From IMG/VR virus record IMGVR_UViG_3300013102_000800, positions 1 to 46,519 of that record: DNA of 46,519 nucleotides. The stretch is one strand, 5' to 3'. Each line of letters starts with the position of its first letter. Within the stretch, counting starts at the first letter, position 1. Of this stretch, positions 9,797 through 41,740 are shown in pieces. Both the position numbers and the translations under genes were made by a program. The notes beneath the pieces are model-generated. The model was given only the letters and a program-made list of their open reading frames with translations, made no database searches and had not been told where the DNA came from. Origin of the DNA: a virus.

Positions 9797-9878
9797 AACT
9801 TGGCGAGATGCCGTCTCTGAGAATTGAAAAAGATCAAGCCTTACGATTTAGAAAATGCTGGCGTATGCTCCGCAATAA

Positions 9879-9894
9879 CTGGATATGCATACAG
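9879..9894. promoter_or_regulatory. LexA-like box
   Basis: CTGG-ATATGCAT-ACAG keeps the CTG-N10-CAG core of a gammaproteobacterial LexA site, with one departure from CTGT-N8-ACAG. It lies 16 bases before the ATG of the gene at 9911, where bound LexA would obstruct transcription of that gene. Confidence 0.4.
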
Positions 9895-9910
9895 CATTTA
9901 GGAGGCGAAA

Positions 9911-10222
9911 ATGGCGAAGGCAAAGAAGACAGAAAAGCCGGCAGTGCGGCATGAGGTAAGCGGAATTGAGCGTCTTGGCCTGCGCGTCTCATCGATGATC
10001 AATCACCCCGTAGCGCAGATTCAGCGCTGGGTGACGATCCATCGTCTGGACACGGATGGTGACCGTGAGTGGGAGGAGGTGATGGGGCTACTAAACGAGA
10101 CGGATGGCATAGACATGACGTTCAACGACGATGAGTCGGTGACGCTGAAGTGGGAGGCGAGCGCCGAAGAGGATCGGCCAGTAGAGGTTTACGAGCCGGC
10201 CGAGGAACCGGCGCCTTTCTGA
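9911..10222 (+). CDS. Hypothetical small protein in immunity region
   Basis: 103 residues with a basic N-terminus (MAKAKKTEKPAVRHE), a compact middle and an acidic Pro-rich C-terminus (PVEVYEPAEEPAPF). GGAGG six bases before the ATG gives a strong start. It is the only plus-strand gene between PL and the repressor. A weak promoter may lie at TTGAAA (9824-9829), and a LexA-like box sits between it and the gene, so it may be induced by DNA damage. An antirepressor-type role is conceivable but unsupported by sequence motifs. Confidence 0.65.
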   Translation: MAKAKKTEKPAVRHEVSGIERLGLRVSSMINHPVAQIQRWVTIHRLDTDGDREWEEVMGLLNETDGIDMTFNDDESVTLKWEASAEEDRPVEVYEPAEEPAPF

Positions 10223-11392: not shown

Positions 11393-12205
11393 CTAAACCA
11401 GCTGCGAATTCCAGACCAGCAGTACTCGAGCTTGGATGAAGGTCTCATCAGCCCGGATAGTCTCGGGTGGGTGCCTGGTATTGTCGGAAATCATTTTGAG
11501 CCGGTCATCACCCATCCATTGAAGGCGCTTGATATACAGATGCCCCTCCCAAGAGAACATGTAGATCCCATCCCCTGAGAACTCGCGAACGCTCACGTCG
11601 ACCAAGAGTGGGTCGCGGTGCTTGATCGTGGGCGCCATCGACTGGCCCCAGCCCGTCACCATCTTCAGGTGGAAATGCTCTTTGAACTCAACACCCATTT
11701 CGCGCAGGTGCCGGGGGCTGACGCGCACGTCCTGAAACATTTCGGGGTAATCGTGAGGGATCTGCCCGCCGCCCATCGCGGCCCGGACGTCGTAATGGGC
11801 AATCCACACTTCATCGCCTACAGCACCTGGGCGGTAATAGTCGAGATCGATCACACCACCGCCATCGTCGGCCTCAGCCGCCGCAAGCAAACGTTGACGC
11901 GCAGCTTCCGGTAGAGACTTCCCTTGTTTTGCGAGCATCTGCTTGACCATATCAGCGGCAGATGCGCCGGAATCCAATCGGCTTTCGGACGTGGAAACGC
12001 CTGGCGAGCCGGTGCCTTCCGATAGCCAGTCAGGCGAGCAATCAAGTGCGCGTGCCAGGGAAAGCAAGTTTTTACCCTTTGCACCGTTTGTTCCGCTCAC
12101 CCAAAAGCTGACCGTGGCCTTTGACACGCCGGTCAGCTTGCTGATGTCTGTAGCGCTGAGGTTCAGCTCCCTCATGCGCGCGGTCACGCGATCTTTGAAT
12201 TCCAT
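11393..12205 (-). CDS. CI-type repressor with S24 autoprotease domain
   Basis: 270 residues. Residues 1-65 form an XRE-type helix-turn-helix (LSATDISKLTGVSKATVSFWVSG) that should bind the GTTTAG-N4-CTAAAC operators. The C-terminal LexA/S24 domain has Ser189 in GWGQSM and Lys226 in YIKRLQ as the catalytic dyad, with a likely cleavage region at AAMGGG (142-147). It keeps the prophage silent and should self-cleave when RecA is activated. The ATG at 12205 lacks a ribosome-binding site and lies seven bases after a TAGAAT -10 box, so its mRNA is probably leaderless, as for lambda cI. An operator abuts the start codon, implying autoregulation. Confidence 0.9.
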   Translation of the reverse strand: MEFKDRVTARMRELNLSATDISKLTGVSKATVSFWVSGTNGAKGKNLLSLARALDCSPDWLSEGTGSPGVSTSESRLDSGASAADMVKQMLAKQGKSLPEAARQRLLAAAEADDGGGVIDLDYYRPGAVGDEVWIAHYDVRAAMGGGQIPHDYPEMFQDVRVSPRHLREMGVEFKEHFHLKMVTGWGQSMAPTIKHRDPLLVDVSVREFSGDGIYMFSWEGHLYIKRLQWMGDDRLKMISDNTRHPPETIRADETFIQARVLLVWNSQLV

Positions 12206-12268
12206 ATTTAGGATTCTAAACAATTCATTGTTTAGATAACTTGCCTTGTATTGTTAAGAACTCTAAAC
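12206..12268. promoter_or_regulatory. Rightward operator region, three repressor sites
   Basis: Three 16-base sites of the form GTTTAG-N4-CTAAAC: 12206-12221 (ATTTAG-GATT-CTAAAC), 12230-12245 (GTTTAG-ATAA-CTTGCC, one good half) and 12253-12268 (GTTAAG-AACT-CTAAAC). Centres are 24 and 23 bases apart, about two helical turns each, as in lambda OR. A separate perfect palindrome AAACAAT-TC-ATTGTTT lies between the first two at 12218-12233 and could be the Cro site. Confidence 0.7.
12213..12218 (-). promoter_or_regulatory. PRM -10 element (repressor maintenance promoter)
   Basis: On the minus strand TAGAAT, 5/6 to consensus, seven bases before the repressor ATG, so the transcript would start at or next to the start codon. 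The -35 region is poor, which fits a promoter needing activation by repressor bound next to it. Confidence 0.55.
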
Positions 12269-13063: not shown

Positions 13064-13765
13064 ATGAACACGATCGTCGCTCCAAGCAATACGGTCACCA
13101 TGTCGAGCCGGGAGATCGCCGATCTCACCGGCAAGCAGCATCAGCACGTCATGCGCGACACGAAGCGCATGCTCGGCGACCTCGGTTTTGATGCGTCCAC
13201 TTTTGGACGCATCTATCTCGATGGCCTGAATCGGCAGCAAACCGAGTACGTGCTCGGGCAGGACCTGGTCGTTACGTTGCTTTCCGGGTACAGCGCGCCG
13301 CTTCGATACCGTGTCGTGACACGTTTGCACGAACTCGAAAACGTGTCGCGACAGGTTGTCACAATCCCACAAACTCTTCCTGAAGCTCTGCGGTTCGCCG
13401 CCTTGCAAGCCGAAGAGAATCTCCAGCTTCAGCAGGTCATCGCCAAGCAGGCGCCGAAAGTCGAAGCGCTCCAGCGTTTGGCGAAATCTCACGGCGACGT
13501 CTGCATCACCACTGCCGCCCAGCTTCTCGGCATTCGCCCAACAAATCTATTCGCCTGGCTGAACCAGAATCGCTGGATTCATCGCCGTACCGCTCATTCG
13601 AGCTGGGTTGCGTATCAGCCTCGGCTGAACACCGGTTGGCTCAAGCACAAGCTGGTCAAGGTCGGCGGCGGGGAAGGGCAGGACATCAAGGTCGTCGAGC
13701 AAGTGATGGTGACCCGTTCGGGCATCGTCACGCTGGCTGAACAACTTCAAGGAATCACGCTGTGA
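13064..13765 (+). CDS. Rha/KilAC-domain phage regulator
   Basis: 233 residues. Residues 10-95 match the Rha regulatory family (MSSREIADLTGKQHQHVMRDTKRML, then YVLGQDLVVTLLSGYSAPLRYRVVTRLHELE). The C-terminal half (110-230) matches KilAC (ITTAAQLLGIRPTNLFAWLNQNRWIHRR, then VMVTRSGIVTLAEQL), a DNA-binding domain of antirepressors. Such proteins act as antirepressors or early regulators. No recognisable Shine-Dalgarno close to 13064 except GGGGCC. It overlaps the next gene by four bases. Confidence 0.85.
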   Translation: MNTIVAPSNTVTMSSREIADLTGKQHQHVMRDTKRMLGDLGFDASTFGRIYLDGLNRQQTEYVLGQDLVVTLLSGYSAPLRYRVVTRLHELENVSRQVVTIPQTLPEALRFAALQAEENLQLQQVIAKQAPKVEALQRLAKSHGDVCITTAAQLLGIRPTNLFAWLNQNRWIHRRTAHSSWVAYQPRLNTGWLKHKLVKVGGGEGQDIKVVEQVMVTRSGIVTLAEQLQGITL

Positions 13766-27765: not shown

Positions 27766-27950
27766 CCACGCGTGTACTCGTGAAGCCGGCCGAGGGCCGC
27801 CTGGTGCGACATCCAGACACCTACGAGCAGATCAAGCCGGAAGGCATGACTGTGGAACTCAACAGTTACTGGATCCGCAAGGAAAAGGCCGGTGACGTCG
27901 TAATCAAAGAGGCCGCGGTACCGGCCGAAACCAAGGGTGAAAAACAATGA
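27762..27950 (+). CDS. DUF2635 tail protein (Mu-like)
   Basis: 62 residues with VLVKPAEGRLVRHPDTYEQIKPEGMTVELNSYWIRKEKAGDVVI, the DUF2635 signature that precedes sheath genes in Mu-like tails. Role in assembly unknown. Overlaps the sheath gene. Confidence 0.85.
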   Translation: MTTRVLVKPAEGRLVRHPDTYEQIKPEGMTVELNSYWIRKEKAGDVVIKEAAVPAETKGEKQ

Positions 27951-38306: not shown

Positions 38307-39377
38307 TTAAGCGATGGCGGCGCTATTTGTTTTTGGGTGGTATTTATTCATGAGGATCTTTCCGACTGCTAATCCAAGTTTTTCCACCGTATTGTGTAGC
38401 GCATAGCAAATAAGGAACAATACAAGCGCAATAAGTAATTTCGAGTATATGTTGCTCAATCCCAGACTGTTCACGGGTTTTTCGATGTACTGCCATATCC
38501 AATTATGGAATAGATAAACAGAATAGGTCAGGTCCGATACCACCCTGATGACAAACCCATCTTTAAGCCTTGGCGCATAGTGTAATGCGCCTAGGAACAA
38601 GGCGAGTGCGAAGACTGCATAATTGCTCTCTTTCCAGCTTGGCTGGAATTCTGAGATTTTAATCAGGAACATCAAAAGCAGTATCGAGCCTACTGAAATG
38701 CACATGGCTCTGCTGGCTAAGGCTTGCTGGCTTAAATAGATCAAGGCACCGATGAATAGGAAAAGAGAGTAGGCATTCACATAGGCCGCGTTCCAGTGGC
38801 CAACCCCAGGGAATGTAGGCGCTATGTACAGCGCGATGCTCACGACCAGATAAGCTAATGGCAATAGCTTCTGGTTTGCGAACAATCCAGCACTCTTAAA
38901 AATAGCCATAAGAACATAAAATAATATTTCGATACGAAGTGTCCAGTCCACCCCACTCAGTGCGTTTGGAATCTCAAAAAAGTCGCCAATCAGCAATAGT
39001 TTGGGTGCCATTATTGAAATCGGAGGTACTGGGATGCCATTGAAATACCAAGCCATAAATGTTTCGCAAAGAATTGCGAATATATAGAGCGGATAAATTC
39101 TAAATATCCGCTTTATGATAAAGGCAGTGGTAGTCTCTTTTTGCAAGACGTGTGAAATTATGTAGCCTGATGTAATGAAGAAAACGACTACACCAGCAGC
39201 TCCAGTGCATAGAGGTACTAGCGCCTCAAATAAATATCTAATAGTTATGTGAAAGCTTTGGTTGTTTGCGGCGGCGGTTAATTCGCCTAAAAACTTGTGG
39301 CCAATTAGTACGCTGACAAATGCGAAAACTCGCATGTAATCAAGAAAAATCAAGCGCCCACCATTATTAGGTGACAT
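38307..39377 (-). CDS. Membrane acyltransferase, lysogenic conversion candidate
   Basis: 356 residues with about ten transmembrane helices and the acyltransferase-3 opening FLDYMRVFAFVSVLIGHKF, in which Arg and His are the conserved catalytic-site residues. Members acetylate surface polysaccharides; phage copies change the O-antigen so other phages cannot adsorb. It is antisense to the late genes, clearly AT-richer than the phage backbone and bounded by terminators, all signs of a recently acquired accessory gene. AGGA six bases before the ATG. Confidence 0.85.
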   Translation of the reverse strand: MSPNNGGRLIFLDYMRVFAFVSVLIGHKFLGELTAAANNQSFHITIRYLFEALVPLCTGAAGVVVFFITSGYIISHVLQKETTTAFIIKRIFRIYPLYIFAILCETFMAWYFNGIPVPPISIMAPKLLLIGDFFEIPNALSGVDWTLRIEILFYVLMAIFKSAGLFANQKLLPLAYLVVSIALYIAPTFPGVGHWNAAYVNAYSLFLFIGALIYLSQQALASRAMCISVGSILLLMFLIKISEFQPSWKESNYAVFALALFLGALHYAPRLKDGFVIRVVSDLTYSVYLFHNWIWQYIEKPVNSLGLSNIYSKLLIALVLFLICYALHNTVEKLGLAVGKILMNKYHPKTNSAAIA

Positions 39378-40054: not shown

Positions 40055-40368
40055 CCGCCTTCACCAGGGTTTCCCGCGTGCTAGCCACCACTGAGGAATG
40101 GAGCTTGTGGTTCGAGTGTCCAGGCTGCGAGATGGTGCATAGGATTATGCATGGTCCGGGTCCAGAGCCGCGCTGGGGATGGAACGGAAATCTGGAAAGC
40201 CCGACGTTCACCCCTTCAGTTCTAGTGCGCTATTCATGGTCCGACAGGGATCGGGTGTGCCACTCGTTCGTAATCGACGGCCGCATTCAGTTTCTTAGCG
40301 ACTGCACGCACGCACTGGCCGGGCAGACAGTGGATCTGCCTGCTTGGGAGGACGAGCAATGCCAGTAA
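40051..40368 (+). CDS. DUF6527 family protein
   Basis: 105 residues starting in the ATGA overlap with the endolysin. SLWFECPGCEMVHRIMHGPGPEPRWGWNGNLESPTFTPSVLVRYSW..CHSFVIDGRIQFLSDCTHALAGQTVDLPAW has the CxxC and Cys/His placement of DUF6527, which is commonly found in phage lysis regions. Possible metal-binding protein. Function unknown. Confidence 0.75.
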   Translation: MTAFTRVSRVLATTEEWSLWFECPGCEMVHRIMHGPGPEPRWGWNGNLESPTFTPSVLVRYSWSDRDRVCHSFVIDGRIQFLSDCTHALAGQTVDLPAWEDEQCQ

Positions 40369-40883
40369 AGATTCCGTGGAAATTGATCGGCGTGTTGGCG
40401 CTGGCTCTGGTCTCCGCCGGCAGCGCCTGGCGAGTTCAGGACTGGCGCTATGGCAAGCGGCTCGCCGAACAGGCTGGGCTGCATCAGGATGACCTGACCG
40501 CCATCAGCAACGCGGCCGCCGTCCAGGTGCGCGCCGATCAAGACAAGCGCCTGGCGCTCGAGCAGCGGCTGGTTGACAGCGATCAAACCCACCACAAGGA
40601 ACTGACAGATGCTCAAACGAAACAAGATCGCGTGCGTGACAGCCTTGCTACTGCTGAGCTCCGGCTGTCAGTCCTTCTCGACGCCACGGATCCAGCCAGT
40701 GGCTGTTCAATGTCAGCCGGTACCGAAACCGTCGGCGTGGTTCATGGAGGAACGCGCGCCCGACTTGACCCAGCGCATGCTCAACGAATTGTCGCCATCA
40801 CCGACGCCGGCGATCAGGGACTGATTGCGCTGAAGGCGTGCCAGGCATACGTCAGAGAGATTTCCGCTCCCGCTTCTCCATGA
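40359..40883 (+). CDS. Rz: Rz-type inner-membrane spanin
   Basis: 174 residues: an N-terminal signal-anchor helix (LIGVLALALVSAGSAW) and a long periplasmic helical part (LAEQAGLHQDDLTAISNAAAVQVRADQDKRLALEQRLVDSDQTHHKELTDAQTKQD). It spans the periplasm with Rz1 to fuse the membranes at lysis. Start at 40359, GGGAGG six bases upstream. Rz1 is nested in another frame, as in many phages. Confidence 0.85.
   Translation: MPVKIPWKLIGVLALALVSAGSAWRVQDWRYGKRLAEQAGLHQDDLTAISNAAAVQVRADQDKRLALEQRLVDSDQTHHKELTDAQTKQDRVRDSLATAELRLSVLLDATDPASGCSMSAGTETVGVVHGGTRARLDPAHAQRIVAITDAGDQGLIALKACQAYVREISAPASP
40609..40824 (+). CDS. Rz1: Rz1 outer-membrane spanin lipoprotein, nested in Rz
   Basis: 71 residues entirely inside Rz in the +1 frame. 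A signal peptide (MLKRNKIACVTALLLLSSGC) ends in a lipobox LSSGC, so Cys20 should be lipidated. The mature part is Pro-rich (QPVAVQCQPVPKPSAW), as in Rz1 proteins. Together with Rz it completes outer-membrane disruption. Confidence 0.9.
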   Translation: MLKRNKIACVTALLLLSSGCQSFSTPRIQPVAVQCQPVPKPSAWFMEERAPDLTQRMLNELSPSPTPAIRD

Positions 40884-41196
40884 GCAACCTCTGGTTTTCT
40901 CTAAACAGGTGATCTCGCTGGTCGGCTATCAGCTGGAGGCTGTAAGCCTTACTGGATAGTTCAGAATGCTCTTCTTTAAGGCGGTTCAACTCAGCTCGTA
41001 GCTGATCCCGCTCCTGGGACACGTCGGCATGCATCTGCACCAAGCCGAAGATGTCTTCGCGGGCTTTGCGCAATTGCAAGGTCAGTTCCTGCACCTCGTT
41101 TTCGGTCACGCGCAGGAAGTAGCGACAGGTCTCCAGTTCAGTCGGGCAGCCAAGCCAGTCGCTGGTGTCTTCGATTTCGAGGGGATCCACGGTCAT
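40852..41196 (-). CDS. Coiled-coil protein under a LexA box
   Basis: 114 residues. After a short acidic N-terminus (DPLEIEDTSDWLGCPTELETCRYF), nearly all of it is a heptad coiled coil (about 30-110; VQELTLQLRKAREDIFGLVQMHADVSQERDQLRAELNRLKEEHSELSS). A near-perfect LexA site lies 13 bases before its ATG, so it should be silent until DNA damage, independent of the phage repressor. AAGG is nearly against the ATG, so the mRNA may be short-leadered. The 3' end overlaps that of Rz by 32 bases. Could be an antirepressor or an SOS-responsive host-modulating protein. Confidence 0.65.
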   Translation of the reverse strand: MTVDPLEIEDTSDWLGCPTELETCRYFLRVTENEVQELTLQLRKAREDIFGLVQMHADVSQERDQLRAELNRLKEEHSELSSKAYSLQLIADQRDHLFRENQRLLMEKRERKSL

Positions 41197-41208
41197 GCCT
41201 TATCGATA

Positions 41209-41224
41209 CTGTTTAGATATACAG
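41209..41224. promoter_or_regulatory. LexA (SOS) box
   Basis: CTGT-TTAGATAT-ACAG, matching the LexA consensus CTGT-N8-ACAG exactly and flanked by TA on both sides. It overlaps the promoter region of the minus-strand gene starting at 41196. Confidence 0.8.
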
Positions 41225-41276
41225 TAATCGAGGCGATGCGGTTGGGCGAGGGGGAAGCGACGAACTGTTACCCCTG

Positions 41277-41486
41277 TCACTCCGGCGTCATGAGCACCGC
41301 GAGTGTCATCTTGATGAACTCCTCGTTACGGTCGATTGCCTCCAGGGCGCTGCGCACGTTATCGGCAACCTCGGCGGATCCTCGCTGCTCGACCCATATA
41401 GTCAGCTCCATGATGGCAGCCTCGAGGGCGAGTTGGTTCTCGTTGATTTTGAAGAGCAGGGAAGGGAGCAGGTCTGAATTGGGCAT
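41277..41486 (-). CDS. Hypothetical small helical protein
   Basis: 69 residues, all helical: FKINENQLALEAAIMELTIWVEQRGSAEVADNVRSALEAIDRNEEFIKMTLAVLM. GGAGG eight bases before the ATG. No family recognised. It is the last prophage gene before attR; the 200 bases to the attachment site contain no gene. Confidence 0.65.
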   Translation of the reverse strand: MPNSDLLPSLLFKINENQLALEAAIMELTIWVEQRGSAEVADNVRSALEAIDRNEEFIKMTLAVLMTPE

Positions 41487-41691
41487 TGTGATTTCCTCCG
41501 TGAAAGAGGAGAGGGTAGCAGGAAATTTTTAAAGGGGATTTACAAGCTGGCAGAACGCCAAGGAAGGGGTACTACTGTAGGAATATACAACGCTAAGTTA
41601 TTGATTCTTATAGGGCTATGTGGCTGTTTTTCACCTCCATAAAAAACGCTGTTTATCATTATGGATCAATAGCTTGCATGGGTTTCGTGGT

Positions 41692-41740
41692 CACCTTGAC
41701 ATGGTGGGGGTCGTTGGTTCGAGTCCAATCGCGCCTACCA
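41692..41740 (+). other. attR: 3' part of tRNA-Val(GAC)
   Basis: The sequence from the anticodon stem-loop (CACC-TTGACAT-GGTGG, anticodon GAC) through the T arm (GTTGG-TTCGAGT-CCAAT) and acceptor 3' strand CGCGCCT to A-CCA matches bacterial tRNA-Val(GAC), but the 5' half is missing and the first stem base has changed. It is therefore the duplicated 49-base end left by integration; the complete gene should be left of the window. Confidence 0.85.

Follow-up and report, generated by a model that had tools for sequence, protein, structure and literature searches.

A LexA-controlled gene in a prophage is an arrangement already known in kind. LexA control has been described for Tum, AntC and the antirepressors of Gifsy, some of which also work against heteroimmune phages (PMC3121763). 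In Gifsy it is the uncleaved repressors that antirepressors inactivate. SRAP, too, has a reported connection with SOS operons, and a damage-sensing role in temperate phages has been proposed for it (PMC3765255). Here we describe a stretch of viral DNA of 46,519 nucleotides (IMG/VR record IMGVR_UViG_3300013102_000800, positions 1 to 46,519; hereafter the window) in which a LexA-type box precedes a small gene for a putative coiled-coil protein. A preliminary description of this DNA had suggested that LexA controls the gene, that the product could be an antirepressor and that the prophage would thereby receive a double SOS input. The features that bear on these suggestions are collected in Table 1.

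Table 1. Position, strand and basis of the features discussed in the text, numbered from the first base of the window
Feature	Position	Strand	Basis
LexA-type box AACTGGATATGCATACAGCA, ahead of the DUF1654 gene	9877..9896	.	80/80 relatives; top matrix score (matrix trained on the DUF1654 family)
DUF1654 gene (PF07867), probably the prophage's second SOS gene	9911..10222	+	PF07867; conserved box
Main repressor, HTH_3 and S24 peptidase domains, cleavage loop AAMGGG	11393..12223	-	domain matches; reading of the loop
Rz-like spanin gene, convergent with the coiled-coil gene and overlapping it by 32 bases at its 3' end	40344..40883	+	phrog_2466; PF03245
Gene for the coiled-coil protein, very likely SOS-controlled, 112 aa from GTG	40852..41190	-	open frame; starts of relatives; codon-position bias; long-helix model
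Shine-Dalgarno-like AAGG, 7 nt upstream of the GTG start	41198..41201	-	sequence; recurs in most relatives
LexA (SOS) box TACTGTTTAGATATACAGTA	41207..41226	.	exact CTGT-N8-ACAG; matrix score; same place in relatives
69-aa gene (phrog_12397), upstream of the coiled-coil gene on the same strand	41277..41486	-	phrog match

Results

The pattern CTGT-N8-ACAG is present without mismatch at 41209-41224, exactly as first reported, inside a 20-mer that lies 10 bases upstream of the first ATG (41196) of the minus-strand gene. The symmetry of the box had been overstated: eight of its ten position pairs are symmetric (the outer six on each side and two inner pairs) and not all ten. An operator of the type by which the Pseudomonas LexA regulon is recognised, CTGT-N8-ACAG at the promoter, is thus found at this locus. 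The window contains two copies of the bare pattern against 0.48 expected from its base composition, so that the pattern is by itself weak evidence for a LexA box at 41207; the other copy, at 27850, falls within a densely coding region and does not rank among the top matrix matches. We therefore brought in relatives of the gene and an independent 20-bp matrix, trained solely on boxes preceding DUF1654 genes, a family unrelated to the coiled-coil gene. The box at 41207 scored 25.7 bits and ranked second in the window behind 28.2 bits at 9877, the latter being the window's own DUF1654 box and hence of the family used for training. The next match reached 9.4 bits, and the highest score over 60 random windows was 16.4. 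A weak third matrix match at 41573 was rejected as a LexA box: about 9 of 51 relatives share it, and it falls short of a full box. The sequence there (41573-41592, reverse CGTTGTATATTCCTACAGTA) is a half-conserved palindrome, about 90-100 bases ahead of the 69-aa gene.

Conservation of the box was assessed in viral and in cellular genomes. Searching IMG/VR yielded 122 relatives of the coiled-coil gene; 80 were kept, of which 75 had upstream DNA. CTG-N10-CAG was found in 73 of these 75 viral loci and the exact CTGT-N8-ACAG in 62, with nearly all boxes 28-29 bases ahead of codon 1. The scan of cellular genomes, with one genome per species and 84,980 species, returned 72 loci of the family, every one in Pseudomonas, and the box accompanied 69 of them (63 exact). 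Position-wise conservation was calculated on 130 distinct upstream sequences chosen for having CTG-N10-CAG. The bases that are free of this selection (T at -2, A at -1 and T at +3) were conserved at 99-100%, as was most of a TCGATTA stretch just upstream, and most positions lying at least 10 bases beyond the box showed 30-70% conservation. In a distant subfamily (MNIDEDTSxWLGCPTPLEMY) the half-sites are unchanged and the core differs (CTGTACGCACATACAG). That the box is a chance palindrome or a part of something else is most improbable; the expected number of bare matches leaves room for such an accident, but about 140 relatives and the score of the independent matrix contradict it. On these comparisons we take the LexA box at 41207-41226 to be real, and the proposed control of the coiled-coil gene by LexA is strongly supported by box conservation and matrix together.

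Boxes of the same kind are present in a host genome and in other phages. In P. fluorescens FW300-N2E3 they precede lexA (26 bases before the gene start), yebG and a topoisomerase gene. A LexA-like box of the same genome (L217, 1501) lies about 9 bases from a gene resembling DNA adenine methylase. In the P. aeruginosa phages F116 (L298, 1605) and Presto (L299, 1638) a near-perfect LexA-type box stands 52 bases ahead of another ORF, with SRAP about 860 bases past the box on the same strand; this first ORF was not recognised as a relative of the coiled-coil family.

The DUF1654 gene is probably a second SOS gene of the prophage, as judged from its upstream sequence and that of its relatives. The sequence CTGGATATGCATACAG ends 16 bases upstream of its ATG. 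All 80 viral relatives have CTG-N10-CAG at about -31, mostly as the CTGG half-site variant, with the exact CTGT-N8-ACAG in 15. Two further records carry both genes (the contigs of L035/L257 and L039/L250). The one paper found on DUF1654, a temperate-phage description, mentions it twice. Since this second gene (box 9877-9896, gene 9911-10222) is on the plus strand, the earlier claim that no other minus-strand gene close to attR has such a site holds, though narrowly. A tRNA-3'-end-like sequence at 41716-41740 is the attR candidate; no second copy of it is present in the window, so attL would be outside the window and attR stays a candidate.

The open frame of the coiled-coil gene, given previously as 40852-41196, is upheld, and its ATG start at 41196 (114 aa) is probably incorrect. 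In many relatives codon 1 is GCG, TTT, CCG, ACG or another triplet that is no start codon, yet GTG or ATG is found at codon 3 behind AAGG, which favours the GTG at 41190 as the probable start of a protein of 112 aa. The differences between the window gene and a relative (L003) number 9, 1 and 20 at codon positions 1, 2 and 3, a split that indicates purifying constraint on the protein. An AlphaFold2 model with a mean pLDDT of 91.6 predicts a short helix at residues 10-13 and then one helix of 94 residues (18-111), which fits the coiled-coil protein proposed at the outset. In the alignment of relatives the first half is conserved (EDTSDWLGxPTxLE ... ENEVQEL) and the second half is variable. Pfam, PHROGs, NCBIfam and PADLOC returned no described family, with generic coiled-coil similarity at most, and a profile search of solved structures gave weak coiled-coil matches and nothing else. 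Matches to SMC, PbeC and LmuB-like entries (NCBIfam, PADLOC, Pfam) were discarded as low-scoring coiled-coil similarity, under the curated cut-offs where these are given. The gene family thus appears to be undescribed in the libraries searched (Pfam, NCBIfam, PHROGs and PADLOC). Public annotations give two of its members (L083 8001-8360, MF975720.1; L084 8004-8342, OP626800.1) the names 'defense against restriction protein A' and 'minor tail protein', which find no support among our results.

The family gene has an Rz-type spanin gene near to it and convergent with it in 106 of 151 neighbourhoods. The product, or an antisense RNA reaching into Rz and endolysin, might then delay or time lysis after DNA damage, and both the overlap of the two genes in the window and a search that found no terminator between them would agree with this. 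We nevertheless hold such an effect on lysis to be very unlikely, because in many relatives SRAP or other DNA puts 1-4 kb between the family gene and Rz, and because the codon constraint and the conserved protein motif point to a function of the protein. Between the tail and lysis genes of the window an acyltransferase gene (38307-39377, minus strand; phrog_3333, O-acetyltransferase, with a weaker O-antigen acetylase match) is a possible surface-modifying cargo gene.

On the other side of the gene, a homologue of the 69-aa gene is located upstream in 62 of the 151 neighbourhoods, from about 70 to 5000 bases off, and the box keeps with the coiled-coil gene although this distance varies. SRAP (PF02586; YedK/HMCES-like) follows the family gene, on the same strand, in 44 of the 151, so that the box resembles an SOS operon promoter; in most of the viral loci listed with SRAP, its start overlaps the stop of the family gene or falls about 18-30 bases beyond, a spacing typical of operons. 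The window has no SRAP at this place, and the coiled-coil gene stands alone there. The association with SRAP could reflect a shared cargo position instead of a joint function.

The suggestion of a double SOS input presupposed a self-cleaving main repressor. The HTH and S24 domains of this repressor are borne out by our searches, but its loop reads DVRAAMGGGQ, with Ser and Lys kept and neither Ala-Gly nor Cys-Gly, which makes the premise doubtful. A double input therefore cannot be assumed. S24 repressors were gathered from records with the family gene, 37 of 50 having one; a search for HTH_3 in the records lacking S24 was mostly negative, possibly since these are fragments. The set for comparison (n=38) consisted of 36 of those records, the window and phage VW-6S, with L081 excluded for an ambiguous repressor pick. 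AAMGGG, AAMGHG and close variants were read in 11 of the 38 co-resident repressors and Ala-Gly or Cys-Gly in the cleavage loop of about 24.

These repressors bear directly on the antirepressor proposal. A LexA-controlled antirepressor like Tum of phage 186 or GfoA and GftA of Gifsy would bind the phage repressor after damage and free it from DNA, which would explain induction despite an uncleavable repressor. The LexA box, the small size and the site outside the immunity region, 29 kb from the repressor gene, are all as in the described cases (PMC3121763). The window's repressor, with no Ala-Gly or Cys-Gly, would suit such a role in that the uncleaved Gifsy repressors are antirepressor targets, and the promiscuous action of some antirepressors on heteroimmune phages would also fit (PMC3121763). 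However, the repressors with Ala-Gly or Cys-Gly should need no antirepressor, and the joint variation that an antirepressor and its target should show was hardly seen over the 38 records. For the whole protein the Mantel r between family and repressor distances was 0.06 (p 0.06); for its C-terminal part it was 0.08 (p 0.03). In 30 pairs the family proteins share at least 75% identity; the repressors of these pairs are <35% identical in 23 cases and >50% in only 4; conversely, among 55 repressor pairs at least 60% identical the family proteins reach 75% or more in only 2. The repressor closest to that of the window (91% in the C-terminal domain, record L077) accompanies a family protein that is only 42% identical. 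Near-identical family members are thus found with unrelated repressors and vice versa, from which an antirepressor gains little support. No relevant antirepressor family was matched in Pfam, PHROGs or NCBIfam, the described antirepressors being themselves diverse. We consider this role unlikely, although an antirepressor of broad specificity might still fit these data. A Rha/KilAC (ANT) domain protein encoded at 13064-13765 is a candidate antirepressor by name and has no LexA box.

A protein that is conserved at its N-terminus among unrelated prophages of one genus, with almost no tie to the repressor, might instead use this N-terminus to bind a conserved host protein and tune the SOS response. 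DinI acts in this manner on RecA and GIL01 gp7 on LexA, and control by LexA would form a natural feedback loop. Against this, neither the DinI nor the gp7 family was matched in the Pfam, PHROGs and NCBIfam searches, and we judge a tuner of this kind to be quite improbable.

Discussion

Taken together our results suggest that a host LexA operator overlaps the promoter of a prophage accessory gene. In the lysogen, LexA would be bound and the coiled-coil gene silent; upon DNA damage RecA would trigger LexA cleavage and the host SOS response would switch the gene on directly, without involvement of the phage repressor. We strongly infer this repression and induction from the box and its conservation, and SOS-induced expression of the gene is very likely. 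Many relatives would co-express the SRAP gene that follows.

The function of the product is a more conjectural matter. An accessory or adaptor role that is independent of the phage repressor is the likeliest of the readings considered and seems reasonably probable. The protein is probably an adaptor made of a conserved N-terminal motif (EDTSDWLGxPTxLE) and one long helix, probably dimerising as a coiled coil, and may bind a shared factor of host or phage origin that takes part in the handling of DNA damage or in early induction. A wider and more tentative possibility is that these SOS-induced prophage proteins, found throughout the genus, have a conserved host target in place of the cognate repressor and form with SRAP and DUF1654 a common damage-response module across unrelated immunities; they might, for example, modulate RecA or LexA, or induce prophages promiscuously under SOS control.

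If our reading is correct, Pseudomonas prophages contain an SOS regulon that answers directly to host LexA and recurs in phages with unrelated repressors, which separates what SOS turns on in a prophage from what inactivates its repressor. The work also provides a readily testable gene family with two conserved promoters, and it flags the S24 repressors with an AAMG loop as a class for which one may ask how they are induced.

Among known systems, Tum of 186, GfoA, GftA and GfhA of Gifsy and AntC of N15 resemble the coiled-coil gene in being small, under direct LexA control and outside the immunity region. The coiled-coil family differs from them in that it has no family match, is unlinked to the type of repressor and co-occurs with many repressors that look self-cleaving. 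DinI- and gp7-type SOS modulators are also small, SOS-linked phage proteins, whereas a match to their families was not detected for the coiled-coil protein. The SRAP SOS operons (PMC3765255) are similar through the SRAP genes that lie behind the family gene in the neighbourhoods described above, and the window departs from them in having no SRAP and, as first gene, a different and undescribed protein. A further parallel, within the same prophage, is the DUF1654 gene of Pseudomonas prophages, which shares with the coiled-coil gene a conserved LexA-type box and differs from it in encoding an unrelated protein, in using mostly the CTGG variant and in being sited near the repressor region.
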